From Actinoplanes sichuanensis (GTDB lineage Bacteria > Actinomycetota > Actinomycetes > Mycobacteriales > Micromonosporaceae): a stretch of 64,000 nucleotides of DNA. This document shows, piece by piece, positions 35,075 through 55,853 of the stretch (the first letter of the stretch is position 1; each line of letters opens with the position of its first letter). Both the position numbers and the translations under genes were made by a program. The stretch spans positions 7,626,001 to 7,690,000 of the forward strand of contig NZ_AP028461.1 of the NCBI RefSeq assembly GCF_033097365.1. Direction: 5' to 3'. Below the pieces are notes generated by a model. That model searched no databases. It was given only the letters and a program-made list of their open reading frames with translations, and was not told the DNA's origin.

Positions 35075-35076
35075 GG

Positions 35077-35370: not shown

Positions 35371-38256
35371 CTACCCGCGGAGGGAGCGGGCCAGGTCTCG
35401 TAAAGCGGCCCGGTCCGGGCGTTCGGTCTTCGCCATCAGGCGGGCCACGTGTTTCTCGACCGTTCGTGGGGACAGGTGCAACCGGCTGGCGATCTCCTGA
35501 TTGCCCAGGCGGGCCGCGATCAGGTCGAGGACCTCGTATTCGCGGACGGTCACACCCCGGGCCCGCAACGCCGCCGGGATGTTGTCCACCCCGTCGCGCC
35601 GCTGGCCGACCGCGACACCGGCCTGACGCAGCAGCGACCGGCAGGCCCGGGCCACCACCGCGTGCTCCGCCTCGTGGAAGTGCTCCTCGGCGCGGCGCAG
35701 CCAGTTCACCGGATCGCCCCAGCCGTCGGTGAGCGCCGCCTCCGACGCGAGCCGCAGCGTGAGATGCCCGGCCAGCGGGTACGGCTCGGCGGCCCGGATG
35801 GCGTTCTCGGCGGCGGCCGCGGCCCCGCCGGGGTCACCGGTCCGGCCGAGCAGCACGGCCCGGGCCATCTCGGCGAACTGCCGGTTCCAGCGCAGCCGCC
35901 GCACCCCGTCCGAGTCGTCGTCCAGGGCGGCCGGGTCGCCGAGGTCACCGGCGACCGCCTTGAGCAGCAGGTCCAGCCCGGCCCGCCCGTTGATCGGGGA
36001 CAGTGCCGGGTTGCCGCCGTCGGCCCGCAGCGCGTCGGCCATCTCGGCGGTGGCCCGTGGGCGGTCCTCCTCCAGCAGTGAGCAGAACACCCGGGCCAGG
36101 CCGAACACCTTGGCGTCGACGGGTGCGTCGGCCCGGTAGCGGCGCAACTCGGCCAGCCGGTTCTCCATCTCCCGGCGCTGGCCCTGGTGGGCGGCGACGA
36201 TGGCGCTGGTCTGCCGCAGGTGCCCGGCGGTCTCGACCATCTCCAGCCGGGTGGTGGCCGACAGGGTCTGCGCGACGATCTCCTCGGCCTCGGCGTATCC
36301 GCCCTGAAGTGCCACCTGAAGCGCGATGCTCGCCTCGGCCTGGTGGGCGGCGGTCACCGCGCCGATCGACCAGGCGTCCCGGCGGACCTGACGCAGCCGG
36401 CGCAGGCTGCCGTCGCGGGCCGCGTCGTCGTTGCCGAGCCGGACCAGCGCGTGCACCTCCCACAGCCGCAGCCCGTGCCGTACCGCCAGCTCCCGGGAGT
36501 GTTCCAGGCAGGCGGTCGCCTCGTCGGTGTTGCGTTGGCGGACCAGCATGCCGAGCAGCTGCCACGCCTGGCAGGCCACCACCGGCAGGTCGTGGCGCTC
36601 GGCGATCGCGGCCGCCCGCCGGGCCAGGTCCTCGGCCTTGCCGACCTGTTCCGGGCCGGGCAGTTCGATGATCAGGTGCGCGGCCACCACGTCGATGGCC
36701 GCGGTCTCGGCCGGGGTGGCGTCGGCGCCGAGCTGCCGGCGCGCCTCGGCGACCTGGGCCAGCCCGTCGGTGGTGCGGGCGGCGAAGACCGCGGCCCAGG
36801 CCAGTCGGGTGTGCAGGACCGCGAGCCGCTGCCGGCTCAGGCCGCCGCCGAGCCCGTCGAGTTCCGGCATCATCTGCAGGGCCCGGTCGATCCGCCCGGC
36901 CTCGACCAGCGCCTGGACCAGCCGTTCGCCGGCGTCGGCGCGCAGGGCCGGGTCGTCGGTCCGGGCGGTGGCCTGTTCGAGCAGGTCGACGGCGGAGGCG
37001 GCGGCGCCGTCGGCGAGCGCCCGGGACGCGGCCTCGATCAGGTGGCGGCCGGCGGCGTCGTGGTCACCGGCCTGCCGGCGTAACCGGGCGGCCAACTGGC
37101 AGAGCGGGCCGGGCAGTTCGGGGTGCAGTTTCTCGACCGTGTCGGCGGCCTGCCGGGCCAGGTCGGCGGTCTGGCCCGCCGGGTGGGACTCGAGCAGGGC
37201 CTCGGCGGTGACCGGGTGGCGGAACCCGTACCACCCGGGGGTGTCGGTCATGGGTTTGATCAGCTCGGCGGCCAGGCCGTGGTGCAGCAGGAAGGTCAGG
37301 TCGGGTTCGCTGAGGCCGGTCATGGCCGGCAGTGCGGCGAGCGGGAACCGCTCGCCGAAGACGGCCGCCGCGGGCAGCAGCCGCCGCAACTCGGGACGAC
37401 TGCCCTCCAGGCGGCGGGCCAGGCGCCGGGACAGCGATCCGGGAACCGCCGCCTGCGGGCGGCCGTTGAGCTGCCAGCCGTCCGGCCCGGTGACCAGGTG
37501 ACCGGCGTCGACCAGACCGTCCAGCAGTTCACCGGCGAGGGCCGGGTTGCCGGCGCTGGGCTGCCAGACCAGCTCGAACAGGTCGTCACCGACCCGGGCG
37601 GCCGGGCAGTCGAGCCGGGTGCCGACGAATTCGCGCAGCTCGTCGCGGTCGAGGCGGGGCAGCCGGAGCAGGTCGGCCACCCCCCGCTGGGCGGCCGACC
37701 GGACCACGTCCAGCGCCGTGCACTCCTGGTCGAGCAGCGCGGCGACCATGGTGACCGGCTGATCGGCCAGGTTGTCGGCCAGGTAGTCGACGATGGTCAG
37801 AGTCTCGGCGTCGGCGTCGTGCAGGTCGTCGAGCAGCAGCAGGCAGCCGCGTTCCCGGCCGGCCAGGGCGAGCAGCCGCAGCACCCCTTCGGCGAGGACG
37901 ATCAGCGACTGCTCCTCGGGGCCGACGGCCGGATCGCGCCACTCCGGGATGAGCCGGCCCAGAACCAGGCGGTACGGCCCGAGCGCGTCCGCGGTGTGTG
38001 CGCCGGCCGTGCGGGTGAACTGCAGCAGCGCCTCGGCGAGCGGCCGGAACGGGGTGGTCGGGGTGATCCCGCCGGCCCGACCGCGCAGCACGACCATGTC
38101 GGTCCGGGCGAGGCGCCCCACCTCGGCGAGCAGCCGGGATCGACCGGAGCCGCTCTCCCCGCGCAGGAAGAGGCTGCCGCCCTCGCCCGCACGCGTGCGG
38201 GACAGGGCGTCGCCGAGCTGCGAGAGAAGGCTGGCGCGTCCGCAGAAGGTCGGCAT
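35371..38256 (-). CDS. Large ATP-binding LuxR-family (LAL) transcriptional regulator
   Basis: 961 residues. N-terminal AAA/STAND ATPase with Walker A GESGSGRS at residues 33-40 and Walker B in CLLLLDDLHDADAETL; the central part is a long helical TPR-like region; the C terminus (about 902-961) is a LuxR-type HTH with LGNQEIASRLHLSPRTVEKH. LAL regulators often activate secondary-metabolite clusters. It lies on the same strand just downstream of the RiPP arm (87 bases after the 52-residue peptide), so it is the likely pathway-specific regulator. No clear ribosome site precedes the ATG at 38256. Confidence 0.9.
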   Translation of the reverse strand: MPTFCGRASLLSQLGDALSRTRAGEGGSLFLRGESGSGRSRLLAEVGRLARTDMVVLRGRAGGITPTTPFRPLAEALLQFTRTAGAHTADALGPYRLVLGRLIPEWRDPAVGPEEQSLIVLAEGVLRLLALAGRERGCLLLLDDLHDADAETLTIVDYLADNLADQPVTMVAALLDQECTALDVVRSAAQRGVADLLRLPRLDRDELREFVGTRLDCPAARVGDDLFELVWQPSAGNPALAGELLDGLVDAGHLVTGPDGWQLNGRPQAAVPGSLSRRLARRLEGSRPELRRLLPAAAVFGERFPLAALPAMTGLSEPDLTFLLHHGLAAELIKPMTDTPGWYGFRHPVTAEALLESHPAGQTADLARQAADTVEKLHPELPGPLCQLAARLRRQAGDHDAAGRHLIEAASRALADGAAASAVDLLEQATARTDDPALRADAGERLVQALVEAGRIDRALQMMPELDGLGGGLSRQRLAVLHTRLAWAAVFAARTTDGLAQVAEARRQLGADATPAETAAIDVVAAHLIIELPGPEQVGKAEDLARRAAAIAERHDLPVVACQAWQLLGMLVRQRNTDEATACLEHSRELAVRHGLRLWEVHALVRLGNDDAARDGSLRRLRQVRRDAWSIGAVTAAHQAEASIALQVALQGGYAEAEEIVAQTLSATTRLEMVETAGHLRQTSAIVAAHQGQRREMENRLAELRRYRADAPVDAKVFGLARVFCSLLEEDRPRATAEMADALRADGGNPALSPINGRAGLDLLLKAVAGDLGDPAALDDDSDGVRRLRWNRQFAEMARAVLLGRTGDPGGAAAAAENAIRAAEPYPLAGHLTLRLASEAALTDGWGDPVNWLRRAEEHFHEAEHAVVARACRSLLRQAGVAVGQRRDGVDNIPAALRARGVTVREYEVLDLIAARLGNQEIASRLHLSPRTVEKHVARLMAKTERPDRAALRDLARSLRG

Positions 38257-38298
38257 CAGGCGGTAGCTTATTGCTCACCGGACGTAGATGTCCATCAC

Positions 38299-38324: not shown

Positions 38325-38343
38325 CGACGGGCATCGCGACGGG

Positions 38344-38502
38344 TCAGTTCGGCTGACCGATACAGCAGCCGGTGCCGCCCGGCCACGCCTGCGCCGGCGA
38401 GCCGATCGCCACCGCTCCGGCCACGAATCCGACGGCGGCCATGACCACCACGGCCAGGCGCAGCCGGTTCTTCGGGCCGCGTGCGAGCTTCTTCTCGTTC
38501 AT
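38344..38502 (-). CDS. 52-residue secreted peptide with C-terminal GTGCCIGQPN
   Basis: Missed by length-based callers unless started at the ATG at 38502, which has a very strong GGGGGAGG ribosome site. Residues 1-15 are basic (MNEKKLARGPKNRLR), 16-34 hydrophobic, and SPAQA at 35-39 is a good signal-peptidase site. That leaves a 13-residue mature peptide starting at Trp40 with adjacent Cys46 and Cys47. It lies 58 bases after the radical SAM gene on the same strand. It could be a signalling peptide, a bacteriocin-like product or an extra cluster substrate; I recognise no family. Confidence 0.75.
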   Translation of the reverse strand: MNEKKLARGPKNRLRLAVVVMAAVGFVAGAVAIGSPAQAWPGGTGCCIGQPN

Positions 38503-38560: not shown

Positions 38561-40696
38561 TCACGCGGCGGCACGTCCGGGCATGGGTGCGTTGCACGTA
38601 TGTTTACGGTCGCCGGTCACCGGCACCCGCCGGATCGCCCGGCGCGCGATGAGGAAGTCCCAGATCCGGTCGGCGGATTCGGCGGGCAACATCCAGGCCC
38701 GGCGACGGGCATCGGCGATCGTCGACGCCGTGGTGAAGATCTTCAGGAACGGGACGGTACGGCGGGGCAGCAGCATGACCCGCCCGTCGGCCCGCCGGAA
38801 GGCCACCCGGTCGCCCGGTTCGTCGGAGTTCGCCCGCTGGATCTCGGCGAGCCGCCGCAGCACATCCGGGTCCTGGTCGGGCAGCAGTTCGCCGTCGAGC
38901 ACGAACTCCCGGTCCTCGTCGTCCGGCCCGCGCCGCACGCTGCGTTCCAGCAGATCACTGACCGCGGTGCCGTACCGGTCGTGGTAGAAGAACGTGTGCG
39001 GGGTGTCGGTGCTGCTCACCCAGGGCCGCGGGTACTCACCCATGTAGAGGCTGAGTTTGTCGGCCATCACCTCGTCGCGGACGGTCTGCGTGATCGGCTC
39101 GTCGAAGAGCAGCGTACGGTCGATGTCGGCGCCCTCGAAGGAGCGGATGCCGCTGATCCCGAACCGATCAGGCTGTTTGGCCACGATGGCGCCCGGGGTG
39201 AGGACGAACTCGCCGAGGCCACCGAAGGTCCACAGTTCCCGGTTGTCCCGCAGGAAACTCACCGACTCGCGGGCCTCGTCCAGGGTCTCGGTGGGAAAAC
39301 CGGTGAAGCCCATGATCTGTACGCCGATCCCGGCCTTGTGCATCGAGGACATCGTCTGCCGTACCTGCGCCGGTCTGGTGCCCTTGTCGATCAGGTCGAG
39401 GATCCGCTGGTTGCCCGACTCGAAACCCACCGAGATTGCCGTGCACCCGGCCTGTTTCAGCAGCTCGCACCGCTCGTCGGACCAGTACTTCTCGAGCCTG
39501 ATCTCGGCGCCCCAGCGCACGTCGATGCCCCGCTCGACGACCTTCTCGGCGAACCGCAGGATGGCCGCCGGCGCGAGCACGTCCACCGAGAAGTAGACGA
39601 ACTGCGCGAACTTCGACAGTTCCTCGACGTCGCGGATCATCCGGTCCACGGTGTCCTGCCGCCACGGGCTGGTCGGCCCGTCGGTGTTCAGCCCGTAGTC
39701 GCAGAACGTGCACTTGTTCCAGTAGCAGCCCCGGGTCGGCGAGTAGTACACGAACCGGGTCGGGCTCAGGTACATGTCCCAGGGCAGGTTGCTGAAGTCC
39801 GGGGTGGGCAGCTCGCCGAGCTTCTCATAGTGCAGCATCGGCAGCGCCCGGACCGCGCCGTGCTTCGGGTGCAGCCGCACGTTGGGGTGCTTGGTGGGCA
39901 GCGTGCCGGCGCCGAGCGCGTCGAGGATCTCGGTGTACGCGCTCTCGCCCTCCCCCACCACCAGCCCGTCGAAGTCGGCGAACAGCTCGAACAGCCGTTT
40001 CTTGTCCCGCAGGTTCTTGAAGCAGTCGGAGACCTCGGTGCCACCGGCGATCAGGAAGACGTCCGGCAGGGTCTGGCGGATCAGCCGGGCCAGCCACAGC
40101 GCGAACGGCAGCTGCCACTGGTAGGTGATGCTGATCCCGACCAGGTCGAAGTTCCCGGCCCGCAGTCGGGGCAGCAGCGACTCCTGGTAGTACGGCGTGA
40201 ACGGCCGGCTCAGCCGGGACAGCACGGCCGGGTCGGTCAGCGCCCGCAGCGACCCGATCTCGATCTCCCGGGGCGCGTTGAGTTGGAAGCCGTTCTGGAA
40301 CTGGCCGGGGAAGCCGGCGCCGCCGAGGCAGCTCATCCAGGCCGACACCCCGTCCACCGCACGGTGGTAGGCGTCCAGGTCGAAGAACCGTTCCGGGTCC
40401 TGGAAGGTGGCCACCGCGTCCCGGATCGCCTCCGGATCGGGGGTGCCGGTCTGCAGCAGGTGGGCCCGTTCGGTCAGGTCGGTGGTGGTCCGGGCGGCGC
40501 TCAACGCCTGGTCGAGCCAGGCCAGCGCGGACGGCGTGTAGGAGTGGTGGAACGCCTCGATGTTGGCGTCGATCACGGTCGCCGGGCGATGACCCACCGA
40601 GCGGGCGTACGAGTCGAGATAGTTCAGTGAGTGGTAGCCGGACGTCGGGTCGGTCAGCGGAGGGTAGATGAGCGCGGCGTTCGGGCTGCTGGTCAC
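38561..40696 (-). CDS. Radical SAM RiPP maturase with B12-binding-like N-terminal region
   Basis: 711 residues. The N-terminal third has a Rossmann-like layout seen in cobalamin-binding radical SAM proteins (AALIYPPLTDPTSGYHSLNY; DLVGISITYQWQLPFALWLA; FLIAGGTEVSD) but lacks the DxHxxG cobalamin motif. The radical SAM cluster motif is RGCYWNKCTFCDYG with Cys324, Cys329 and Cys332, i.e. CX4CX2C rather than the usual CX3CX2C. It resembles the CW-x-CxFC motif of maturases in NHLP/peptide clusters. The GTG at 40696 overlaps the tfuA TGA, with AGGTGG upstream; a longer start at 40735 is less likely. Reaction unknown. Confidence 0.85.
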   Translation of the reverse strand: MTSSPNAALIYPPLTDPTSGYHSLNYLDSYARSVGHRPATVIDANIEAFHHSYTPSALAWLDQALSAARTTTDLTERAHLLQTGTPDPEAIRDAVATFQDPERFFDLDAYHRAVDGVSAWMSCLGGAGFPGQFQNGFQLNAPREIEIGSLRALTDPAVLSRLSRPFTPYYQESLLPRLRAGNFDLVGISITYQWQLPFALWLARLIRQTLPDVFLIAGGTEVSDCFKNLRDKKRLFELFADFDGLVVGEGESAYTEILDALGAGTLPTKHPNVRLHPKHGAVRALPMLHYEKLGELPTPDFSNLPWDMYLSPTRFVYYSPTRGCYWNKCTFCDYGLNTDGPTSPWRQDTVDRMIRDVEELSKFAQFVYFSVDVLAPAAILRFAEKVVERGIDVRWGAEIRLEKYWSDERCELLKQAGCTAISVGFESGNQRILDLIDKGTRPAQVRQTMSSMHKAGIGVQIMGFTGFPTETLDEARESVSFLRDNRELWTFGGLGEFVLTPGAIVAKQPDRFGISGIRSFEGADIDRTLLFDEPITQTVRDEVMADKLSLYMGEYPRPWVSSTDTPHTFFYHDRYGTAVSDLLERSVRRGPDDEDREFVLDGELLPDQDPDVLRRLAEIQRANSDEPGDRVAFRRADGRVMLLPRRTVPFLKIFTTASTIADARRRAWMLPAESADRIWDFLIARRAIRRVPVTGDRKHTCNAPMPGRAAA

Positions 40697-42018
40697 TGGT
40701 GCACCACCTCGCGAGGTCGAGTCGGGGGGAACCACGGCGCCCGGAGCACGCGCAGGTAGCCGATGAGGAAACCGGCCAGTTCACGGAGCTGGTCGAGGTC
40801 GCGGAAGCCGCGGTCCCAGGCGGCCGCGGTCAGGCCGGCCGGCTCGCAGCCCCACTGGGCGGCGAGCACCGCGTCGGTGATCCCGGCCCGGAACCGGGCC
40901 GGGCGCCCCTGTCGCCGGGTGAGTCCGGCCTGGATGCCCTTGGCGGTGACGACCGCCTGCCGGGCGATGTCGAGCACGTCGGCCCGGTGTAGCTCGGGCG
41001 GGATCATCGCCGGTGAGATCTGCCTGGTCTCGGCCGCGCCGAGACTGCGGACCAGCAGTCGCAGGGTGGCCTCGGCGGCGGGCAGGCCCACCTCGTCCGG
41101 GGTGAGCCACGAGCCGTCCGGGACCGGCCCACCGCGGCCGAGACGCTCGGCCGTGCGCAGGGCCGACTCCTCCAGGGCGGGGTCGTCCGGCGCGGCACCG
41201 CTGAAGTCGGCCAGCACCCGGGCCCGATGCGCGGCCGCGAAGCCGGGGTGCAGCACGCGCAGCGCGACCAGCAACTCCTGTTCGCTGACCCCGCCGGTCT
41301 GCTCGTAGCGGGAGCGCCAGCCCTCCAAGTAGGTGGTGTGCACGTGTTCGATCGGCTCGTCGCCGGGTCCGGCCGGGCACAGCCGGGGGTCATCGGCCGC
41401 GGCGGCGCGCAGCAGCAGCCGGGCGTCGGCGGCCTTCGCGTCGACCGGATGCTCCCGCAGCCACGACCCCAGCCCGTCCATCGCGGAGCCGGCCCGCAGC
41501 GCCAGCGAACGCCAGGTCAGCAGCCGGAACGGGATGTCGGCGGCGGTCTTCAGCAGCAGCTCGCCCTCGTCCGGGCCGATCGCGCCGGCCGTGATCGCCT
41601 CGCGGACCGCGATCCGGATGTTCACCAGCGGCTCGCTCAGCTGCCGGTACTCGTCCTCATCGAGCCCGTGCACCACGGCTACCTCGTGGTCACCGGTGAC
41701 GGTGCCGTCCCGGTAGAGCTCGAAGACGTCACCGAAGCCGCGCATGCCGTACGGCCACAGCTCGGCGGCCCGCAGCGCGCCCATGCTGCTGCCACCGGCC
41801 ACCGTGACGCCGCGTTCCAGCAGGAACAGGATCTCCCGATGCCGGACCGGCGGCCGGTGCATGAAGAAGCCGTCGATGATCAGCACCCGGTCGTCCGGGC
41901 CGGGGGCGAGCCGGAGCAGGTCGCCGTGCCCGACCGGCGGCAGGATCCGCGCGCCGGGCAGCAGTGCGGCGGCCTCCGCGGCGGGCAGGCTCGGGCCGAG
42001 GAAGACCAGGTCAGACAT
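40693..42018 (-). CDS. tfuA: TfuA-domain protein, partner of YcaO
   Basis: 441 residues. The TfuA core is at roughly residues 1-170: LVFLGPSLPAAEAAALLPGA, VLIIDGFFMHRPPVRHREIL, and VAGGSSMGALRAAELWPYGM with the conserved SSMGALRAAE block. TfuA proteins work with YcaO enzymes in backbone thioamidation (thioviridamide-type peptides and methanogen McrA), possibly delivering sulfur. The C-terminal ~270 residues are an extension beyond the usual stand-alone TfuA length. The ATG at 42018 overlaps the ycaO stop by eight bases. Confidence 0.88.
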   Translation of the reverse strand: MSDLVFLGPSLPAAEAAALLPGARILPPVGHGDLLRLAPGPDDRVLIIDGFFMHRPPVRHREILFLLERGVTVAGGSSMGALRAAELWPYGMRGFGDVFELYRDGTVTGDHEVAVVHGLDEDEYRQLSEPLVNIRIAVREAITAGAIGPDEGELLLKTAADIPFRLLTWRSLALRAGSAMDGLGSWLREHPVDAKAADARLLLRAAAADDPRLCPAGPGDEPIEHVHTTYLEGWRSRYEQTGGVSEQELLVALRVLHPGFAAAHRARVLADFSGAAPDDPALEESALRTAERLGRGGPVPDGSWLTPDEVGLPAAEATLRLLVRSLGAAETRQISPAMIPPELHRADVLDIARQAVVTAKGIQAGLTRRQGRPARFRAGITDAVLAAQWGCEPAGLTAAAWDRGFRDLDQLRELAGFLIGYLRVLRAPWFPPTRPREVVHQ

Positions 42019-43195
42019 CGCCGGCTCCGGGGCGCAGGGAGAGCGCGGCGTCGTCGACCAGGCGCAGGCCCGGCGCGATCACCCGGCTCACCGGGATGCC
42101 GACCTCGTCGTGGGTCAGGTCCACCACGAACGGCTCGTGGCCGGTGTACTCCATGATCCGGGCGGCTACGTGCTGCACGAGGGCCTCCAGGTCCTGGCCG
42201 AGGGCGGTCACCGCGGGATCCGGCGGGCGGATCGGCTCGCAGGGCAGGTCGAGGGCGGGCGGCGGCTCGGCGTACGGGTCGGCGGCCATGTAGACCTCAC
42301 CGGCGATGTCGTCGCGGGCCCCGCCGACGGTGACCAGCCGGGACTGGGCCGCCTCGGCCAGCGCCCGGCCGACCGCCCGACCCGGGTCGACGTGACATCC
42401 GAAGCCGCCGAAGACCATCGGGATCGAGTTGTCCCACATCGACGCGCCGTAGCAGGGCAGCCCGGTCGGGCCGGTCAGGTCGACCACCTCGACCCAACTG
42501 GAGGAGCCACGGACCGCGGCGAGCACGGCCATGGTCGAGGGATCGGTGCAACTGTCCGGGTCCACGTAGCGGCGGTCGGCGAGAGCGGAGATCGCGTACG
42601 GCGTCATCCCGTCCCGCTCGACGAGTTCCAGCAGCGCGTGCAGGGTCGCCTCGGCCGCGGTGTTCCCGGTGGCCAGCCCGCTGCTGGTCGGGGTGAAGAG
42701 GACGTCGTTCGGGATGCCCCCGGGGGTGACCGTGAAGTCGAGATAGACCAGGTCGTAGGGGGCCAGGTAGGTGCGCCCGGTCAGCAGGCCACGACCGGCG
42801 ATCCAGTCGAGCACGGTCCGGCCGGTCAGTGGCGACCGCGGCGCCAGATGCAGGGAGCGAGGGTCAAACCCGAGATCAAGATCAAGGGCCGGCGCTCGTA
42901 CGGCCACCGCGCGCCGCGGATTCTCGGCGTGCCAGCCCTCGATGCTCTCCATCGTCGCGGCCACCCGGGACTGGGCCGCGGTGAGCCCGGTGCCGACGGT
43001 CACGGCCAGGCACCGCCCGGTGGGGCGGTAGGCCACGTGCACCGGCAGCCCGACCTCGTCCAGCCCGGTGATGTCGGCGACCCGGGTGATCCCGAACCGC
43101 GGCAGCATCGGCCGGATCCGTTCCCAGGTCTGCTCGGCGGTCGCCGCCCGGTACGACGCGGTCCGGGTCGGGTGATCGTTGACGGTCGTCGGCAC
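42011..43195 (-). CDS. Stand-alone YcaO enzyme, TfuA-associated (probable thioamide-forming)
   Basis: 394 residues, one YcaO ATP-binding domain. Motifs: AATMESIEGWHAENPRRAV, LHALLELVERDGM and RALAEAAQSRLVTV supply the Glu/Arg set that holds ATP and Mg. It activates a peptide amide with ATP; with TfuA the known outcome is a thioamide, while with an E1-like partner it is an azoline. Since it overlaps tfuA, thioamidation is the favoured reading. GTG start at 43195 with GGGGAGG upstream. Sits directly after the Asn-rich precursor, beyond a hairpin. Confidence 0.92.
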   Translation of the reverse strand: MPTTVNDHPTRTASYRAATAEQTWERIRPMLPRFGITRVADITGLDEVGLPVHVAYRPTGRCLAVTVGTGLTAAQSRVAATMESIEGWHAENPRRAVAVRAPALDLDLGFDPRSLHLAPRSPLTGRTVLDWIAGRGLLTGRTYLAPYDLVYLDFTVTPGGIPNDVLFTPTSSGLATGNTAAEATLHALLELVERDGMTPYAISALADRRYVDPDSCTDPSTMAVLAAVRGSSSWVEVVDLTGPTGLPCYGASMWDNSIPMVFGGFGCHVDPGRAVGRALAEAAQSRLVTVGGARDDIAGEVYMAADPYAEPPPALDLPCEPIRPPDPAVTALGQDLEALVQHVAARIMEYTGHEPFVVDLTHDEVGIPVSRVIAPGLRLVDDAALSLRPGAGDV

Positions 43196-43219
43196 GGTTC
43201 GTCCTCCCCGGGAAGTGCG

Positions 43220-43250
43220 GGGCCGGCGCGAACGGGGGTCGCGCCGGCCC
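43220..43250 (-). terminator. Strong hairpin between Asn-rich precursor and ycaO
   Basis: Perfect 12-bp stem GGGCCGGCGCGA (43220-43231) / TCGCGCCGGCCC (43239-43250) with a 7-base loop. It starts six bases after the precursor stop and ends 25 bases before the ycaO GTG. No T-run. Such hairpins after RiPP precursor genes often protect or partly terminate the short mRNA, giving more precursor than enzyme. Confidence 0.75.
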
Positions 43251-43255
43251 GGCCG

Positions 43256-43609: not shown

Positions 43610-43683
43610 GACACACGTCCTTCCGGTGCTACTGCGAATGGGGTGACGGCCCGGTGATGCCGGTGGGGCCGTGATGCCGGGCC

Positions 43684-43772: not shown

Positions 43773-43809
43773 GACGCTCCGAGCACGGAACCGATCGATG
43801 TCATCGCGG

Positions 43810-47807: not shown

Positions 47808-47823
47808 TCGTCCGGAGGGGCCC

Positions 47824-49290
47824 GTGTCATCGACCACCGCAGTGCCCACCGAACCGGATACCGGCTCGGTCCGCCGGGTTCCGGTCCGGGAGGAGTACCG
47901 CTTCCGGGACCGGACCACCCTGGCCAACGGCACCGGCGACTCGATCACCGTCCAGTACGGGCGGTTCCAACTGCACATGGAACGGCTCGGGCTGGGCCGC
48001 CGGGCGATGCTGCTGCGGCTGGCCGACGAATGGCTCGACGACGACGCCGTCCAGCATCTGGTGGCCACGGTCGAGGGCGAGAACAGCATCCTGCGGGCCC
48101 AGGTGCTGCTCCGACGGCTGGTCACGCACGCCTGGCTGCGCCGCCGGCTGTCCGCCGGCAACCGGCCGCTGCTGGAGATCGACCCGCAGGGGCTCGGCGC
48201 GTCGGTGCTGCCGCCACCGGCCCGGCACCGGCCCGGAGTCAGATACCGGATGTCGCGTCTGGCCCGGATCGACGCCGACGGCGAGGTGCTGTCCGCGCTC
48301 AGCCCGGCGCATGCGGTGGTCGTCGGCTGTCCCGACCCACGGGTGGCCGGCCTGCTCGCGGTGGCCGCCGCCCAGGGCTGTGACCTGGACCGGGCGGCCG
48401 CCGTGCTGGGGGTGTCGGCGCCGGTGGCGGGCCGGGTCCTGGACGAGTTGCTCAGCGCCGGGATCGTGACGGAACCGGGCGGTACGGCCACACCCGCGGT
48501 GTTCTGGTCACCGGCGGAGCTGGAGGTACACCACAGGTCCCGGGTCGGGCGGCACGCGCTTCCGGTCGGCGGCACCTACCGGTTCCGGGACCGGCTGCCG
48601 GCCGAGCCGCTACGGCGTACCTTCCCCGACGCCCCGGCCACCGACCTGCCGGAACCGGACCTGGACGCGATCGCCGCGACCGAGCCGGCCCTGACCGACG
48701 TGATCCGGGCCCGGCGGTCGATCCGCGCCCACGACGACGCGCATCCGATCACCGTGGATCGGCTGGCCGAGTTCCTGTATCGGGTGCAGGCCACCCGCCC
48801 GGCCGGTGCCCACGACGGCATCGAGGTCGGGCACCGGCCGTACCCGGGTGGCGGTGGGCTCTACGAGCTGGAGATCTATCCGCTGGTGCTGAGCTGTGCG
48901 GGCCTGTCGCCGGGGCTGTACCACTACGACGGGACGGCGCACCAGCTGCGCCTGCTGGCCCCGCCGGGGCCGTTGACCGAACGGATGGCCGGGTACGCCC
49001 GAGCCGCCGCCGCGATGGCCGGGCCACCCCAGGTGCTGCTGGTGATCACTGCCCGGGTCGGCCGGCTGATGTGGAAGTACGAGGGGATCGGCTACCCGAT
49101 GATCCTCAAGCACTCGGGTGTACTCACCGAGCTGATGTACCTGGTCGCCACGGCGATGGGGCTGGCGCCGTGCGCGCTGGGCTCGGGCGACTCGGCCGCG
49201 TTCGCCGAGCTGTCCGGGATCGATCCGCTGGCCGAACCCGCGGTGGCCGACTTCGCGCTCGGCTCGCCCTACCCCAAGGAGCCCCGATGA
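47824..49290 (+). CDS. SagB-type azoline dehydrogenase
   Basis: 488 residues. The C-terminal half is a nitroreductase-fold FMN oxidase: DVIRARRSIRAHDDAHPITV, FLYRVQATRPAG, YPGGGGLYELEIYPLVLSCA and YLVATAMGLAPCALGSGD. It oxidises azolines made by the preceding YcaO fusion to aromatic azoles. The N-terminal ~250 residues are a helical extension with a winged-helix-like part. The GTG at 47824 follows GGAGGGG; an ATG at 47794 would overlap the upstream gene by 14 bases. Its end overlaps the adaptor start (ATGA). Confidence 0.92.
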   Translation: MSSTTAVPTEPDTGSVRRVPVREEYRFRDRTTLANGTGDSITVQYGRFQLHMERLGLGRRAMLLRLADEWLDDDAVQHLVATVEGENSILRAQVLLRRLVTHAWLRRRLSAGNRPLLEIDPQGLGASVLPPPARHRPGVRYRMSRLARIDADGEVLSALSPAHAVVVGCPDPRVAGLLAVAAAQGCDLDRAAAVLGVSAPVAGRVLDELLSAGIVTEPGGTATPAVFWSPAELEVHHRSRVGRHALPVGGTYRFRDRLPAEPLRRTFPDAPATDLPEPDLDAIAATEPALTDVIRARRSIRAHDDAHPITVDRLAEFLYRVQATRPAGAHDGIEVGHRPYPGGGGLYELEIYPLVLSCAGLSPGLYHYDGTAHQLRLLAPPGPLTERMAGYARAAAAMAGPPQVLLVITARVGRLMWKYEGIGYPMILKHSGVLTELMYLVATAMGLAPCALGSGDSAAFAELSGIDPLAEPAVADFALGSPYPKEPR

Positions 49291-50096
49291 GGTTCCGTAG
49301 GCAGGCGCTGCGGCACCTGGAGCAGCCGGAGAGCCTGGACCAGGTGGCCCGGCTGACCACGGTGCCGAGCTGGCTGCTCACCGCCGCGCTGGTGGTGACC
49401 GTGTTGGCCACCGGCGCCTGGACCACCACGGCGACGCTGGATCGGGAGGTCACCGCCGGTGGTGTGCTGATCCACCCGCACGGGGTCTCCGACTTCGACG
49501 CCGCAGAGACCGGTCGGGTGGTCAAGGTCTGGGTGGACCGGAATCAGCCGGTCGCCAAGGGCAGCCCGATCTACAGCGTGCAGGGTGACTCCGGTGGGAT
49601 CGTCACGGTGCCCGCGCCGTGGGACGCGTACGTGGTGAACCTGCTGATCGCCGAGGGCCGGGTGGTCGAGCGCGGTTCCCGGGTGGCCGAACTGGAACGG
49701 CTGGACGCGCCGGGTGACGCCCTGCAGGCGGTGCTGTTCGTACCGGCCGCGAGCGCGCCGATGCTCTCCGCCGGCCAGCCCGTGCACGTCGACGTGGCCG
49801 CGGTCTCCACCACGGTCTTCGGCACCCTGCAGGGCGAGGTCGGTACGGTCGGCGCGTTCCCGGAGACCGAGGACTCGCTGCGGGCGTTCCTCGGTTCGGG
49901 CCGGGACGTGCGGCCGTTCCTGGCCGACGGCAGCGTGGTCCGGGTGGTGGTGCTGCTGCACGCCGACCCGGAGTCGCCGACCGGGTTGCAGTGGTCGAAG
50001 GCGTCCCCGCCGTTTCGGCTCACCTCGATCAGCGAGGTCGACGGCCGGATCGTGGTCGGCCAGGATCGGCCGCTGGACTGGGTGCTGGGCCGATGA
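49287..50096 (+). CDS. HlyD-like membrane-fusion adaptor of the NHLM exporter
   Basis: 269 residues. One N-terminal membrane helix (WLLTAALVVTVLATGAW) and an outside beta-rich biotinyl/HlyD-like region (GRVVKVWVDRNQPVAKGSPI and TVPAPWDAYVVNLLIAEGRV). NHLP peptide-export operons regularly hold such an adaptor before their two ABC proteins. Starts in ATGA overlap with the sagB-like gene and ends in overlap with the C39 exporter, so the plus arm is tightly coupled. Shorter than typical HlyD proteins, lacking a long coiled coil. Confidence 0.85.
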   Translation: MRFRRQALRHLEQPESLDQVARLTTVPSWLLTAALVVTVLATGAWTTTATLDREVTAGGVLIHPHGVSDFDAAETGRVVKVWVDRNQPVAKGSPIYSVQGDSGGIVTVPAPWDAYVVNLLIAEGRVVERGSRVAELERLDAPGDALQAVLFVPAASAPMLSAGQPVHVDVAAVSTTVFGTLQGEVGTVGAFPETEDSLRAFLGSGRDVRPFLADGSVVRVVVLLHADPESPTGLQWSKASPPFRLTSISEVDGRIVVGQDRPLDWVLGR

Positions 50097-52270
50097 CCGA
50101 CACCGTGATCGACCTGGACCGGGCCGCCCCGGAGCCGCCGCGCCGCCGCCGGGTGCGCACACCGACGCTGATCCAGATGGAGGCGGTCGAGTGCGGCGCG
50201 GCCTCGCTCGGCATCGTGCTGGCCCACCACGGCCGACACGTACCCCTGGAGGAGCTGCGGGAACGCTGCGGGGTCAGCCGGGACGGCTCGAACGCCTCCA
50301 CCGTGCTCAAGGGCGCCCGGCACTACGGGATGACCGCCAAGGGCTTCCAGATGGAGGTCGACAAGCTCGCCTCGGTGCCGCTGCCGGCCATCCTGTTCTG
50401 GAAGTTCCAACACTTCCTGGTGTTGGAGGGGATGGGCGCCAAGAAGGTCTGGGTGAACGACCCGGCGACCGGCCCGCGCCCGATCGGCTGGGCCGAGTTC
50501 GACGAGGGCTACACCGGCATCGTGCTGACGCTGACCCCGGATCCGGAGAGGTTCCGACCCGGCGGCGACCGGTTCCGGGCCTGGGCCGCGCTGGCCGCCC
50601 GCTGGCGGGGGCTGCGCGCGGTCGCCGCCCAGGCCGTCCTGCTCGGCCTGGTGATGGCCGTGGTCGGCCTGACCATGCCCGCGGTGGTCCGGATCTTCGT
50701 CGACCAGGTGCTGCTCGGTGGCGGTGGGGCGCTTTCCGGGCTGCTCACCGCGATGGCCGGGGCCGCGGTGGTCACGCTGCTCGCGGCACTGGCCCAGGAA
50801 CGCCTGATGGTCCGGGCCGAGACCGCGATGGCGCTGAGCACGGCGGCCCGACTGTTCCGGCGGCTGATGCGGCTGCCCGCGGCGTTCTTCGACCAGCGGC
50901 AGGCGGCCGACCTGACCCGCCGGATCCGCAGCACCGACGTGGTGGCCGACGTGGTCACCAGGCGGCTGACACTGACCCTGGTCGACGTGACGCTGGTGGT
51001 CGCGTACGGCGGCCTGCTCTGCCTTTACGATCCGCTGCTGGGCGCCGTGTCGGTGCTGCTGTGCGGCCTGAACGTGCTGGCCCTGCGGTACGTTTCGGCG
51101 CTGCGCACCACGGCGGTGGCGAGTCTGCAGGCCGAACGCAGCAAGCTGTTCAGCACCGTGCACACCACCATCCAGATGATCGAGACGGTCAAGGCGGGCG
51201 GCGCCGAGCAGCACAGTTTCCAGCAGTTCAGCTCGCGGGCCGCAGCGGTCACCAACGACCAGCAGCGGCTCGGCCGGCCCACCGCGATCCTCTCGGTCGT
51301 GCCCGCGCTGCTGGCCACCCTGAACACCGCGGTCCTGCTCGGGCTGGGCGGCCCACGGATCCTGGCCGGCAGCCTCAGCATCGGCGTCGTGCTCGGCATG
51401 CAGACCCTGGTGGTGGCGATGAACCGGCCGGTCGCCGCGCTCACCGCGGTCGGCGCGCAGGTCCAGGAGATGTCGGCCGATCTGAGCCGACTGCGCGACG
51501 TGGAGAACTATCCGGCCCCGGATCCGCCCCGGCCCGAGCCGCCGGAACCACTGGACGGGCACCTGCGGATCGAGGGCCTGACCTTCGGCTACAACCCGCT
51601 CGCGGCACCGCTGCTGAGCGAGTTCGACCTGGATCTGCCGCCGGGCGCCCGGGTGGCGCTGGTGGGCCGCTCGGGCAGCGGCAAGTCGACGGTCGGGCGG
51701 CTGGTGTCCGGCCTGTACCGGCCGTGGTCCGGGCGGATCACCGTGGACGGCCGGGAACGGGCGAGCATCGACCCGGGGCTGTGGGCGGCCACCGTGGCGA
51801 TGGTCGACCAGGAGCAGATCCTGTTCGAGGGCACGATCCGGGAGAACGTCACACTCTGGGACTCGTCGGTCTCGGACGAGGACGTGGTCGCCGCGCTGTC
51901 CGACGCCGCGGTGCTGGACGTGGTGCTGTCCCGGCCGGGTGGCCTGGGCGCCCGGGTCGACGAGGGCGGCCGCAACTTCTCCGGCGGTCAACGTCAACGG
52001 CTGGAGATCGCCCGCGCGCTGGTACGCCGTCCGCGCCTGCTGGTCCTCGACGAGGCGACCAGCGCGTTGGACGCCCAGACCGAGCAGACCATCGACCACC
52101 ACCTGCGCCGTCGCGGAGCCACCTGCCTGATCGTGGCGCACCGGCTGTCCACGATCCGCGACTGCGACCTGATCGTGGTGCTGGACGGCGGGCGCGAGGT
52201 CGAACGCGGCACCCACGACGAGCTGGTGGCTCGGGACGGTCACTACGCACGACTGGTCCGGGACGAGTGA
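50093..52270 (+). CDS. NHLM-type ABC exporter with C39 leader peptidase
   Basis: 725 residues. C39 protease domain: Cys34 in MEAVECGAASLG, His107 in FWKFQHFLVLEG, Asp123 in VWVNDPATG, the full catalytic set. Next come about six membrane segments and a nucleotide-binding domain with Walker A GRSGSGKSTVGRL near residue 525, signature FSGGQRQRLEIARAL, Walker B LLVLDEATSALD. It should cut the NHLP leaders after the AAG/VAG motif and export the modified peptides, with the neighbouring ABC protein. ATGA overlap with the adaptor gene. Confidence 0.94.
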   Translation: MTDTVIDLDRAAPEPPRRRRVRTPTLIQMEAVECGAASLGIVLAHHGRHVPLEELRERCGVSRDGSNASTVLKGARHYGMTAKGFQMEVDKLASVPLPAILFWKFQHFLVLEGMGAKKVWVNDPATGPRPIGWAEFDEGYTGIVLTLTPDPERFRPGGDRFRAWAALAARWRGLRAVAAQAVLLGLVMAVVGLTMPAVVRIFVDQVLLGGGGALSGLLTAMAGAAVVTLLAALAQERLMVRAETAMALSTAARLFRRLMRLPAAFFDQRQAADLTRRIRSTDVVADVVTRRLTLTLVDVTLVVAYGGLLCLYDPLLGAVSVLLCGLNVLALRYVSALRTTAVASLQAERSKLFSTVHTTIQMIETVKAGGAEQHSFQQFSSRAAAVTNDQQRLGRPTAILSVVPALLATLNTAVLLGLGGPRILAGSLSIGVVLGMQTLVVAMNRPVAALTAVGAQVQEMSADLSRLRDVENYPAPDPPRPEPPEPLDGHLRIEGLTFGYNPLAAPLLSEFDLDLPPGARVALVGRSGSGKSTVGRLVSGLYRPWSGRITVDGRERASIDPGLWAATVAMVDQEQILFEGTIRENVTLWDSSVSDEDVVAALSDAAVLDVVLSRPGGLGARVDEGGRNFSGGQRQRLEIARALVRRPRLLVLDEATSALDAQTEQTIDHHLRRRGATCLIVAHRLSTIRDCDLIVVLDGGREVERGTHDELVARDGHYARLVRDE

Positions 52271-52283: not shown

Positions 52284-55103
52284 ATGACGATCGAGACGGT
52301 CACCGGGGACGGCGCGCTGCTCGTGGTGGACGCGCCGAGCGACCTGTTCCTGGTGCGCACCAGGGTCGGTGGCGCGCGGTCCCGGCGGCACTTCGTGGCC
52401 CGGATCCCGGCCGGTGGGCTGGTACCCGACGTCGCCCGGTCCGGGGTGTGGCGGCTGCTGGCCGTACCGCTGCCGGGTGGACGTCTCGACCGCCTGCCCG
52501 GACCGCCCGACGGCGCCGAGGCGATCGATCTGTCGCTGGCCGCGCTGGCCGGCGCGGTCCGTGGCGACCGGGAGCCGCCGCGGGACGCCCGGACGCTCTA
52601 CGCGGGGCAGGTCGAGGCGGCCACCGCGGGCACCACCTTCACCGGCACCCCGGCGGTGTGCTGGGTGCGCGGCACCGGCGGCCGCCTGACCCGCAACGAC
52701 GGTGGGCCGGACGAGACGTTCGAGGAGGGTGTGCCGGTGCTGCTGGCCGGGCGCGACTGGGTGCGCCCGGAACGAGGCGGCGCGGTGGAGGCGTGCTCCA
52801 GCGACGATCTGCTGCGCTCGGGCGAGCTGTGGGACGTGGTCCGCGACCGGACCGCCCGGCTGCTGCGCCTGGTCGAACGGCAGGGTGCGGCGGCCGACGC
52901 GGCGCTGCTGACCTCGCTGACCGCCCGCGAGGAGGGGAACCGGGCGGCGGTGGCCCGCGCGACCCGGATCGCGTCCGGTCTGGTCGGCGCCCGGCCGTCC
53001 GCCGGTCACACCGGGCGGGGCGAGCGGTTCCGGCGGGCCGCCGCCGCGTTGCGCCTGGTCGCCGGTGCGGGCGGGCTGCCGGTGGTGGAGCCGGCCGGGC
53101 GGCGCGACGAACCGGCCGATCTGGCCGAGGCGGTCCGTGCGGTGGCCCGCAGCTCGTCGCTGCACCTGCGGGACGTGCAGCTACCGGAGGACTGGTGGCG
53201 GCACGACCTGGGCCCGCTGCTGGGCTGGCGGGCCGAGGAGACCGGGACCGCCGTGGTGTGTCTGGTGCATCGACGCGGCCGGTACCGGGAGGTGGACCCG
53301 GAGACCGGGGCGGTCCTGGCCACCGGCCGGGCCGCCGCCGACGGGGTGTCCCGGACCGCCACCCAGGTGCAGGTGCCGCTACCGGTCGAGACATCGGTGC
53401 CGAAGGTGTTCCGGCTGGGCAGCACCGGCGCGGGCCCGGATCTGGCCGTCCTGGCCGGGTGCGGGCTGATCGTCGCCGCGCTGGCCCTGGCCGCGCCGAT
53501 CGTGACCGGCCGGGTGCTGGGCGCGCTGGCCGAACGGGTGTCGGTGTCCGGCCTGACCTGGTCGGCACTGCTGCTGGTGGCCTGCGGCGGGGTGGCCGCC
53601 CTGGTCGGCGTGGCGACGAATCTACGTATGTTGCGCGGTGAGGGCCGGGTCGAGTACGGCGTACAGCTGGTCCTCTGGGATCGCCTGCTGCGGCTGCCGG
53701 TCCGGTTCTTCCGGGACACCAGCAGCGGCGAGCTGGCCAACACGCTGCTCGGGGTCACGTTCGTCCGGGAGGCGCTGTCCGGGGTGATCCTGCTGCTGCT
53801 CACCTCGTCGCTGACCGCGATCACCATGCTGACGCTGGTGTGGGTGCTGAGTCCACCGCTGGGGCTGGCCGCCACCGGCTTGGCGCTGGCCGCGCTGGTG
53901 CTGGTCGGCGTGCTGGGCCGGGTGGTGATCGCGCGGCAGCGGCGGGCGCTGCCGGCCGAGCACCGGGCGGTGTCCACCGCGCACCAGCTGATCAGCGGAA
54001 TCTCCAAGATCAAACTCGCCGGGGCGGAGCAGCGGGCGTTCGCCCGATGGTTCGAGCAGACGGCGTACGCCCGGGGCACCCTCAACCGGGTCCGCGGCGT
54101 GCAGGCCGTGCTGCGGGCGGTGGCCACCGTGCTGCCGATCGCCGGTCAGCTGCTGCTGTTCACGATCCTGGCCGGCCCGCTCGCCGGCGAACTGGCCCCG
54201 GACGACTTCTTCGCCCTCAACGTGGCCTTCCTGATGCTGGTCGGCGCGCTGCTGGTGATCGTCTCCGGAAGTGTCGAGCTGCTGGCCGCGCTACCCCGCC
54301 TCGCCGAGCTGAAGCTGCTGCTCGCCGGCGTGCCGGAGCGGACACCGGACCGGGCCGACCCGGGCGACCTGCGCGGCGAGATCACCCTCCAGGACGTGAG
54401 CTTCGGGTACGGCCCGGACGCCCCGCCGGTGATCGACGACGTGACGCTGCGGGTGCCGGCCGGTAGCTTCACGGCGATCGTCGGCCCGAGCGGATGCGGC
54501 AAGTCCACCCTGCTCCGGCTGCTGCTGGGCTTCGAGTCGCCGGCGCAGGGTTCGGTCTACTACGACAACCAGGATCTCGCCGAACTGGACCTGCAGGCGG
54601 TCCGCCGACAGTGCGGGGTGGTGCTGCAGGACGGGCAACTGTTCGCCGGTTCGCTGCGCGACAACGTGTGCGGCGCCGCCTCGTACAGCCTGGAACGGGT
54701 CCTGGAGGCGGCCCGGCTGGCCGGACTCGACGACGACATCGCGCACCTGCCGATGGGTGTGGCGACGATGGTTCCGCACGGTGGCGGCACACTCTCGGTC
54801 GGGCAGCGGCAGCGCGTCCTGATCGCCCGGGCGCTGATCCACCGACCCCGGATGATCTTCTTCGACGAGGCGACCAGCGCGCTCGACAACCGCACCCAGG
54901 AGCGGGTCACCGAGAGCACCCGGCAGCTCAGCGCCACCCGCCTGGTGATCGCGCACCGGTTGTCCACGGTGCGGCACGCCGACCTGATCGTGGTGATGGA
55001 GCGGGGGCGGATCGTGCAGCAGGGCACGTTCGCCGACCTGATGGCCGAGCGGGACGGTCTGTTCCACCGGCTGGCCCGCCGCCAACTGGTCACCGAGGAC
55101 TGA
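52284..55103 (+). CDS. Second NHLM-type ABC exporter, no peptidase
   Basis: 939 residues. A ~380-residue N-terminal region specific to the second NHLM exporter (opens MTIETVTGDGALLVVDAPSD, without C39 residues), then membrane segments from about residue 385 and an ATPase domain: Walker A GPSGCGKSTLLRLLLGFESP near 734, signature LSVGQRQRVLIARAL (SVGQ rather than SGGQ), Walker B MIFFDEATSALDN. It likely pairs with the C39 exporter as a heterodimer. Fourteen bases after it; its stop abuts the convergent MerR stop. Confidence 0.92.
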   Translation: MTIETVTGDGALLVVDAPSDLFLVRTRVGGARSRRHFVARIPAGGLVPDVARSGVWRLLAVPLPGGRLDRLPGPPDGAEAIDLSLAALAGAVRGDREPPRDARTLYAGQVEAATAGTTFTGTPAVCWVRGTGGRLTRNDGGPDETFEEGVPVLLAGRDWVRPERGGAVEACSSDDLLRSGELWDVVRDRTARLLRLVERQGAAADAALLTSLTAREEGNRAAVARATRIASGLVGARPSAGHTGRGERFRRAAAALRLVAGAGGLPVVEPAGRRDEPADLAEAVRAVARSSSLHLRDVQLPEDWWRHDLGPLLGWRAEETGTAVVCLVHRRGRYREVDPETGAVLATGRAAADGVSRTATQVQVPLPVETSVPKVFRLGSTGAGPDLAVLAGCGLIVAALALAAPIVTGRVLGALAERVSVSGLTWSALLLVACGGVAALVGVATNLRMLRGEGRVEYGVQLVLWDRLLRLPVRFFRDTSSGELANTLLGVTFVREALSGVILLLLTSSLTAITMLTLVWVLSPPLGLAATGLALAALVLVGVLGRVVIARQRRALPAEHRAVSTAHQLISGISKIKLAGAEQRAFARWFEQTAYARGTLNRVRGVQAVLRAVATVLPIAGQLLLFTILAGPLAGELAPDDFFALNVAFLMLVGALLVIVSGSVELLAALPRLAELKLLLAGVPERTPDRADPGDLRGEITLQDVSFGYGPDAPPVIDDVTLRVPAGSFTAIVGPSGCGKSTLLRLLLGFESPAQGSVYYDNQDLAELDLQAVRRQCGVVLQDGQLFAGSLRDNVCGAASYSLERVLEAARLAGLDDDIAHLPMGVATMVPHGGGTLSVGQRQRVLIARALIHRPRMIFFDEATSALDNRTQERVTESTRQLSATRLVIAHRLSTVRHADLIVVMERGRIVQQGTFADLMAERDGLFHRLARRQLVTED

Positions 55104-55853
55104 TCAGCCCAGGTCCATCACGGCGGCGGTCTCCACCAGCATGACGGTGCCCTGACCGGAGCGACGGCCCACGATGTCCACCACGGACGTCGGGCCGCGG
55201 TTCTCGGCGACCACCCGGAACGCCTCGCTGAGCAGGTCGATCAGCCCCTGCGCGAGCAGCTCGGCCGAGTCGCTCCACTCGTCCCAGGTGTTCGCACGCG
55301 GCCGGGCCGGGTCGCCCGGCAGCGACAGGATCCGGTCGCCGGTCGCCCGCAGCAGCTCGTCGACCGGGCGGCCGATCCGGTCCAGTACCTCGACCAGCAC
55401 CTGCACGGTCTGCCGGGCGGGCAGACCGGACCGGTGCAGTTCCAGAGCCGCGCGCAGCGCCCGCGGCCGGACCAGCTGGACCGCCCCGTTCTCCCGCCAC
55501 GCGACCACCCCGTGTCTGGTGAGCGCGTCGACCAGCGCCGGGGACTCGGTGGCGAGCCGCTGCATCAGGGGGGCGAGGCCGTCGCCGCGAGGCTGTCCGG
55601 CACGTACCCCGAACATCGCCTCGATCGCGGTGAGGTTGAAGCCCTGCCGTTGCAGCGACAGGATCGCCTCCAGCCGGCGCAGGTGATGTTCCTGGTAGAC
55701 CACGGTACGGCCGCGCCGGACCGGCGGGGCGAGGATGCGGCGGGCCTGATGCGCCCGGATGTTGCGAGGCGACATCCCGACCTGGCGGCTCAACTCCCCG
55801 ATGGTGAACTCCGGCTGGGTCGCCGCCGGTCCTTCCACACGCTGGACGGTCAT
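55104..55853 (-). CDS. MerR-family transcriptional regulator
   Basis: 249 residues from the ATG at 55853. N-terminal winged helix of the MerR family: FTIGELSRQVGMSPRNIRAH, RRGRTVVYQEHHLRRLEAIL, QRQGFNLTAIEAMFGV. The C-terminal ~170 residues are helical with no metal-binding Cys, so it probably senses an organic ligand or protein. Convergent with the second exporter: the stops are back to back (TGA/TCA). A regulator of the RiPP cluster is plausible by place only. Confidence 0.88.
   Translation of the reverse strand: MTVQRVEGPAATQPEFTIGELSRQVGMSPRNIRAHQARRILAPPVRRGRTVVYQEHHLRRLEAILSLQRQGFNLTAIEAMFGVRAGQPRGDGLAPLMQRLATESPALVDALTRHGVVAWRENGAVQLVRPRALRAALELHRSGLPARQTVQVLVEVLDRIGRPVDELLRATGDRILSLPGDPARPRANTWDEWSDSAELLAQGLIDLLSEAFRVVAENRGPTSVVDIVGRRSGQGTVMLVETAAVMDLG

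Follow-up and report, generated by a model that had tools for sequence, protein, structure and literature searches.

Does a locus that encodes two similar precursor peptides and two different YcaO systems make one peptide with several kinds of modification, or two peptides? The question is raised by a gene cluster for ribosomally synthesised and post-translationally modified peptides (RiPPs) in Actinoplanes sichuanensis, which lies in a window of 64,000 nucleotides, the whole stretch of DNA analysed here (NZ_AP028461.1, positions 7,626,001 to 7,690,000). The original prediction left both answers standing. The parts it listed are all present in the window: two precursor-like genes (here P1 and P2), a YcaO and TfuA pair (YcaO1, TfuA), a radical S-adenosylmethionine (SAM) protein, a fusion of leader-binding and YcaO domains (E1-YcaO2) and a SagB-type enzyme (Table 1). 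Comparison with related loci now favours two peptides of different chemistry, the chemistry and the shared export being predicted from sequence. Two homologous precursors and two YcaO sets would most probably yield two separate products that leave through one exporter. We prefer this reading because P1 cores are often free of Cys, Ser and Thr and P2 cores are Cys-rich, because the closest relatives of the two YcaO proteins differ, and because a locus without P2, in genome G134, is also without E1-YcaO2.

The leaders of P1 and P2 are homologous (hhalign probability 98.8, E-value 9.5e-17) and the cores, taken as all residues past the predicted cleavage site, differ. In the window, the P1 core NNVNNNLYQSK follows ...LELIAAG and contains no Cys; the P2 core VDPTGACCCPCCCT follows ...VVAG and gives the protein its C-terminus GACCCPCCCT. 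Both had been described as precursors with a nitrile hydratase leader peptide (NHLP). What stands of that description is the homology of the leaders and their similarity to the NHLP model TIGR03793, which matches all 14 P2 rows and 10 of the 12 P1 rows at an E-value of 0.01 or better. The family assignment itself had to be relaxed: P1 (21.6) and P2 (16.8) score below the curated cut-off of 50.9, and we therefore term them NHLP-like. The model of class IIb two-peptide bacteriocins, TIGR03949, gave weak matches to four of the 12 P1 rows (best E-value 0.00012).

Mining of genomes for the same gene set, as the original prediction had proposed, was carried out in 67 Actinoplanes genomes and in an even draw of 300 family genomes from a larger group. 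Of the 300, 28 contain the set, the window's own included: nine from Actinoplanes, 18 from a single genus (g4) and one from another (g44). All 28 complete loci have CCCPCC in the P2 core, 25 of them in the longer form CCCPCCCT. Each P2 core contains six or seven Cys residues, which gives it the Cys/Ser/Thr-rich character of linear azol(in)e-containing peptides or thiazole/oxazole-modified microcins (LAP/TOMM), a character that the P1 core lacks. The CCCPCC core notwithstanding, identity of the P2 proteins to that of the window falls as low as 50 percent, and the core shows some synonymous changes in Cys and Pro codons (11 rows examined). The P1 cores are diverse and rich in Asn, Val and Ile, for example NNVNNNLYQSK, INVNINLYQAK, ADNNVNIIAVLIL, DNNVNVSLCIFAETA and TKVNIIVACVVNA. 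Sixteen of the 31 P1 genes in these 28 genomes (eight of 20 distinct cores) have no Cys, Ser or Thr past the cleavage site; 22 of the 31 have no Cys, and the other nine have a single one. Formation of azol(in)es requires Cys, Ser or Thr in the substrate, and thioamidation of the backbone is independent of side chains. The 16 cores free of these residues are therefore not azole substrates, and a single hybrid peptide is a weaker candidate for the same reason. Three genomes (L037, L038, L039) have two P1-type genes and a single P2.

A search for P2 copies on plasmids found none, and a literature search for a known compound with a CCCPCC core returned unrelated matches only. Genome G488 (L130:1190-1537) encodes a distant NHLP-like precursor with the core YCCCCCPCCSCT next to an E1-like piece at a contig end; thus, CCCPCC occurs outside the cluster family of the window.

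The two YcaO proteins have different relatives. E1-YcaO2 passes the cut-offs of both of its models (124.4 against 36.9 for TIGR03882, 234.2 against 219.25 for TIGR03604), and it aligns with LynD over residues 14-774 of 777 (E-value 2e-123), with TruD and MusD also among its nearest relatives. The nearest solved relative of YcaO1 is MJ1094 (92.4 bits, versus 59.3 for LynD), which we take to be a YcaO of the thioamidation type. YcaO1 also scores 167.7 bits with TIGR03266, below the cut-off of 365, which we cite as support for the MJ1094 kind. Judged by these scores, YcaO1 is nearer to the presumably thioamidating than to the azole-forming solved YcaO proteins. Its gene adjoins one with a TfuA domain, for which PF07812 scores 135.8 bits against a cut-off of 30. 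TfuA matches the thioamidation TfuA 6xp8 in sequence as well as in predicted fold (template modelling score 0.79 when normalised by the 217-residue chain; mean predicted local distance difference test score, pLDDT, 86.1), and its Ser78 and Lys195, candidates for a catalytic pair, are invariant in 21 of 21 aligned rows. YcaO1 and TfuA are similar to archaeal thioamidation proteins, and E1-YcaO2 is similar to LynD and TruD. A helical C-terminal extension of TfuA (residues about 210-425) is common to the aligned long TfuA proteins; a PDB search with the whole model gave no match to the extension itself. YcaO1/TfuA relatives with 32-33 percent identity occur beside ABC genes of the NHLM-like kind described below in three gammaproteobacterial loci (L009, L010, L011), Legionella massiliensis among the hosts. 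In L009 and L010, YcaO and TfuA are each matched twice.

YcaO1 and TfuA might perform another kind of amide chemistry on P1, giving an amidine or a macrocycle, as YcaO proteins also make amidines (PMC8442711). We consider this unlikely, since TfuA is predicted to have a 6xp8-like fold and, in the literature consulted, TfuA proteins accompany thioamidation as partners of YcaO (PMC8153245, PMC8120280, PMC13185837; also the title of the 6xp8 record). TsaH and TsaI, for instance, are required for thioamides (PMC8153245).

On the side of P2, SagB scores 144.1 with TIGR03605 (cut-off 78.4) and has the motif WKYEG, with the Lys-Tyr pair expected of such dehydrogenases, in 28 of 28 genomes. A highly improbable alternative is that P2 is not heterocyclised at all, but is a Cys-rich metal-binding or disulfide peptide, with E1-YcaO2 and SagB acting elsewhere. 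So invariant a core could serve as a metal ligand, and a locus of another family, in genome G650 (L129:2225-10189, L133), combines an NHLP-like leader, a Cys-free core, a SagB whose Lys-Tyr motif is intact and an NHLM-like exporter with no YcaO in the stretch examined. Against this stand the LynD-type cyclodehydratase and the SagB with intact Lys-Tyr present together in 28 of 28 loci, and the absence of both P2 and E1-YcaO2 from G134.

The radical SAM protein is of the cobalamin-binding kind. All 29 rows show its CX4CX2C motif, it is matched by PF04055 and PF02310, and its sole solved match is TokK (E-value 5.3e-05). With TIGR03975, the model of B12 radical SAM C-methyltransferases of RiPPs, it reaches 87.3 bits and fails the cut-off of 281.85.

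The two sets of genes occur together. P1 and P2 profiles match the same 10 of 67 Actinoplanes genomes (nine pairs and a remnant in G019), and each matches 30 of the 300 family genomes, the identical 30, comprising 28 pairs, G019 and G134. No locus with P2 only was found in the 300 family genomes. In G019, P2 is internally deleted, P1 is shortened and no YcaO1 relative was found; the P1-profile match lay on the P2 remnant in the genus search, and a better match in the family search lay on the P1 remnant. YcaO1, TfuA, the radical SAM protein, ABC1, HlyD, SagB, E1-YcaO2 and the lipoprotein are encoded in 28 of 28 loci. So is ABC2, of which G046 shows the first third only before its contig ends; this contig end also accounts for the one locus without the MerR-type gene (27 of 28). 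Conservation of the gene set in 28 genomes is more than chance. There are two gene orders. That of the window's locus, shared with its three closest relatives, is divergent; in the other, the genes from E1-ycaO2 to ABC2 run into MerR, P2, P1, ycaO1, tfuA and the radical SAM gene. The correlation of patristic distances between YcaO1 and E1-YcaO2 is 0.96 (28 loci, 378 pairs), and for protein pairs without ABC2 it lies between 0.91 and 0.99; the values for ABC2 (0.68 to 0.80) are unsound, as the G041 entry is a piece of ABC1 and that of G046 a start only. ABC2 itself is whole in G041 and G066. Each phylum sample of 396 genomes yielded four matches, two of them distant NHLP-like relatives.

Could these be two unrelated RiPP clusters that are neighbours and share only their place? 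Each enzyme set looks complete in itself, similar kinds occur apart elsewhere, such as the Cys-rich NHLP-like peptide and E1 part of G488, and TfuA/YcaO clusters are found on Streptomyces plasmids. We nevertheless regard mere neighbourhood as very unlikely: there is a single exporter, both sets have stayed linked in 28 of 28 loci despite the two gene orders, P2 never stands without P1 in the family sample, and G019 holds remnants of both precursors with no YcaO1 match.

The locus of G134 is informative for what belongs with what. It keeps P1, YcaO1 and TfuA. The whole genome yielded no P2 (the one match of the P2 profile is the P1 gene) and no E1-YcaO2 (a single weak match is YcaO1), and three stretches examined gave no lipoprotein match. 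Its SagB reads WRYEG in place of the WKYEG of the 28 others, with Arg for Lys of the Lys-Tyr motif. These losses fit E1-YcaO2, SagB and the lipoprotein belonging with P2. They also bear on the proposal that P2 is the sole product, carrying azoles and a thioamide, with P1 as a helper, a decoy or a chaperone-like leader. Thioamides made by TfuA-YcaO are known in thiopeptides such as thiopeptin (PMC8120280), and the homology of the two leaders agrees with such a division. We find the proposal quite unlikely, as G134 keeps P1 and YcaO1/TfuA without P2, albeit in a locus that looks partly decayed. Moreover, ycaO1 follows P1 after 60 bp, all 28 loci retain the P1 leader and core, three of them in two copies, and diversification is seen in P1 cores and hardly at all in P2 cores.

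Several observations weigh against two products with separate chemistries. Fifteen of the 31 P1 cores hold Cys, Ser or Thr (nine of them one Cys), and the exclusion of azoles misses these. Neither precursor reaches the NHLP cut-off, and Gly is absent from some predicted P1 cleavage sites (AAAV, AAAQ). In G134, the frame of the radical SAM gene is broken and HlyD is shortened, so its joint losses, a single case, may reflect general decay of the locus; it also retains sagB without a cyclodehydratase. As SagB occurs in G650 with no YcaO in the stretch examined, oxidation of azolines may not be its function in every locus. Methylation of P1 by the radical SAM protein is suggested by gene order and family, with TIGR03975 far below its cut-off. 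Finally, a Fisher test on 28, 1, 0 and 270 genomes (n=299, G019 excluded) gives p 1.6e-38, a value far too strong given shared descent and uncorrected for phylogeny; with 18 of the 28 genomes in one genus, these are not 28 independent cases.

From the genes, linkage, core sequences and YcaO relatives observed, we infer modification, cleavage, export and activity of two products as follows. Having bound the leader of P2, E1-YcaO2 would close the Cys residues of CCCPCCC into rings, which SagB would then convert to thiazoles by oxidation. On a second route, YcaO1 and TfuA would exchange backbone oxygen for sulfur in the Asn/Val-rich P1 core, giving a thioamide, and the cobalamin-binding radical SAM protein would methylate unactivated carbons of P1. 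For the P1 core NNVNNNLYQSK, the calculated [M+H]+ is 1307.634 in unmodified form, 1323.611 for a single thioamide and 1337.627 for a thioamide and a methyl group together; for the P2 core VDPTGACCCPCCCT it is 1375.428 in unmodified form and 1255.271 for six azoles. A thioamide reveals itself in MS/MS by a loss of 33.988 Da (PMC8153245). The C39 domain of ABC1 may remove the two leaders by cleavage after a Gly-Gly-like site; ABC1, HlyD and ABC2 would export both cores, with the lipoprotein binding or neutralising a product outside the membrane.

A near-invariant P2 next to diverse P1 suggests a constant target for P2 and a variable one for P1, and hence a two-component reading of the pair. Like the alpha and beta partners in two-component lantibiotics, the invariant polythiazole P2 and the fast-diversifying, thioamidated and C-methylated hydrophobic P1 might act jointly as an obligate two-peptide weapon, made by two YcaO chemistries from one duplicated precursor. 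We put this forward tentatively and think it on the whole doubtful. If the division of labour is true, the copies of one duplicated precursor gene have each come under a YcaO chemistry of their own, with a single export route retained, and the locus would be a natural system for learning how E1-YcaO and YcaO/TfuA discriminate between homologous leaders. That one core, CCCPCC, stays almost unchanged next to a partner that diversifies is unusual in evolution and points to a conserved P2 target. The cluster is also found in Actinoplanes sandaracinus NEAU-A12, A. philippinensis DSM 43019 and A. xinjiangensis DSM 45184, and its presence in named strains makes it directly testable.

The host genome has 12.1 Mb in one contig, and the nearest named relatives at the locus are Actinoplanes species. 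On the minus strand P2 and P1 come first, followed by ycaO1, tfuA and the radical SAM gene; next is a gene of 52 codons that encodes a Sec-type signal, and last the gene of a LuxR-type regulator. Divergent from P2, the plus strand has genes for the lipoprotein, E1-YcaO2, SagB, HlyD, ABC1 and ABC2, followed by a MerR-type gene on the minus strand. Spacing suggests two operons, since genes in ycaO1-tfuA-radical SAM (ycaO1 and tfuA by 8 bp) and in E1-ycaO2-sagB-hlyD-ABC1 overlap or nearly abut. A scan for sigma-70 promoters over 43100-45500 gave no match. We rejected a shared operator upstream of P2, as comparison of 23 upstream regions from four groups, with five or fewer from each, showed no k-mer of 8-10 in more than two groups; among the matches listed for these regions, no inverted repeats recurring between groups were seen. 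A likely toxin-antitoxin pair, a PIN-domain protein with a Phd/YefM-type antitoxin (34664-35334, minus strand), adjoins the LuxR end, and a sigma-70-family gene, probably of the extracytoplasmic function type (56682-57302, minus strand), lies just outside the MerR end. Elsewhere in the host genome, a further YcaO is found in a 1219-codon frame (G000:C1:4601996-4603018; L002, L048), with a weak match to E1-YcaO2 and a weak SagB match nearby.

Table 1. Genes of the cluster in the window, with their positions and the evidence for each.
Feature	Position	Strand	Evidence
P1, NHLP-like precursor, 117 aa	43256-43609	-	Open reading frame, conservation; TIGR03793 below cut-off
P2, NHLP-like precursor, 121 aa	43810-44175	-	CCCPCC in 28/28 loci; TIGR03793 below cut-off
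YcaO1, stand-alone, TfuA-partnered kind	42011-43195	-	PF02624 203.5 bits; MJ1094 nearest solved
TfuA with C-terminal helical extension	40693-42018	-	PF07812 135.8 bits; 6xp8
Cobalamin-binding radical SAM protein, predicted C-methyltransferase	38561-40735	-	PF04055 62.8, PF02310 38.0 bits
E1-YcaO2, leader-binding/YcaO fusion, LynD/TruD type	45477-47807	+	TIGR03882 124.4, TIGR03604 234.2
SagB-type flavin mononucleotide (FMN) peptide dehydrogenase, Lys-Tyr motif	47794-49290	+	TIGR03605 144.1
HlyD-like exporter adaptor	49287-50096	+	TIGR03794 112.3, below cut-off
ABC1, C39 peptidase and ATP-binding cassette (ABC) exporter, predicted protease for both leaders	50093-52270	+	TIGR03796 885.5; PF03412
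ABC2, second exporter ATPase/permease	52284-55103	+	TIGR03797 677.1, below 709.4 cut-off
Lipoprotein, first domain predicted NTF2-like	44389-45375	+	In 28/28 loci
MerR-type regulator, one edge	55104-55922	-	PF13411 52.4 bits
LuxR-type AAA regulator, other edge	35371-38256	-	PF13191, PF00196
52-aa gene, Sec-type signal, tail GGTGCCIGQPN	38344-38502	-	In the window's locus and three closest relatives only

The exporter had been called a complete nitrile hydratase leader microcin (NHLM) set. This holds for ABC1, which passes its cut-off (885.5 against 853.3) and carries the ECG...HF...NDP pattern of its C39 peptidase domain; ABC2 (677.1 against 709.4) and HlyD (112.3 against 156.2) fail theirs, and we call the exporter NHLM-like since only ABC1 passes. 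Two genes come in addition to those predicted originally, the lipoprotein and the small gene with the Sec-type signal. The lipoprotein had no sequence match in Pfam, NCBIfam or PDB. A Foldseek search gave a single match under an E-value of 0.001, with a poor template modelling score. The first domain is predicted to be NTF2-like because residues 17-132 of the model (pLDDT 88.3) matched NTF2-like folds; the second half is possibly another such domain. Its predicted role is product binding or immunity.

The 52-aa gene, with its GGTGCCIG-like tail, adjoins the LuxR regulator in the window locus and its three closest relatives, to which full-length matches of that regulator are also limited, and its peptide is possibly a secreted signal for the regulator. 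Searches with tblastn were negative in five other Actinoplanes-type loci and in 22 further loci. As a general part of the cluster the gene was rejected: among 77 matches at an E-value of 0.01 in 200 family genomes, only those in G000 and G041 are clear, and the other 75 resemble generic signal peptides. The gene is also present in G046 and G066; these genomes are absent among the matches listed, presumably because they fell outside the 200-genome draw.

How does the cluster compare with known systems? The original prediction did not recognise a characterised product, and our literature search, which did not extend to supplements, likewise found no close cluster tied to a known compound. Hybrids of TfuA and LAP genes and clusters with two YcaO proteins are already published; a paired system of two precursors and two YcaO sets was not found in the same search. 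Thioamide RiPPs, namely thioamitides such as thiostreptamide S4 and the thiovarsolins, have adjacent ycaO and tfuA genes, as here. The window cluster differs from them in its NHLP-like precursors, adjoining peptidase-ABC exporter, B12-type radical SAM protein and second, azole-type YcaO. Unlike in the thioviridamide-like thioamitides, no gene of the aminovinyl-methylcysteine (AviMeCys) type was recognised: families for dehydration and decarboxylation were absent from 13 proteins between the LuxR and MerR genes scanned against NCBIfam and from 12 (without HlyD) scanned against Pfam, the scan covering the best 25 NCBIfam matches of the two ABC proteins and leaving out the 52-aa gene. The same scan gave no match to a LanM-like dehydratase.

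Azole peptides with NHLP or Nif11 leaders (TOMM/LAP; PMC4603692) share the NHLP-like leader, cyclodehydratase and dehydrogenase, to which the window adds a second precursor and the TfuA/YcaO set. Closer in gene content are the TfuA clusters with LAP genes of Malit et al. 2021 (PMC8120280), which combine TfuA/YcaO with a fused cyclodehydratase-YcaO and a dehydrogenase, as here; most also have split lanthipeptide dehydratases, and the available text names neither a system with two precursors nor one with an NHLM exporter. RiPPER Network 7 (Santos-Aberturas et al. 2019, PMC6511847) consists of TfuA-linked precursors with nitrile hydratase domains from Actinobacteria and may include the cluster family of the window, its members being listed only in supplements. 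Dehydrazoles (PMC10676384) have NHLP-type precursors; a Nakamurella cluster has a second YcaO beside TfuA, and a Thioglobus cluster has two YcaO/dehydrogenase pairs, suggested to act on different precursors. Dehydrazole clusters carry a LanM-like dehydratase, in which they differ from the window cluster. Bottromycin clusters also contain two YcaO proteins, as here; there, one forms a macroamidine and the other a thiazoline, each acting without a partner protein (PMC8442711).

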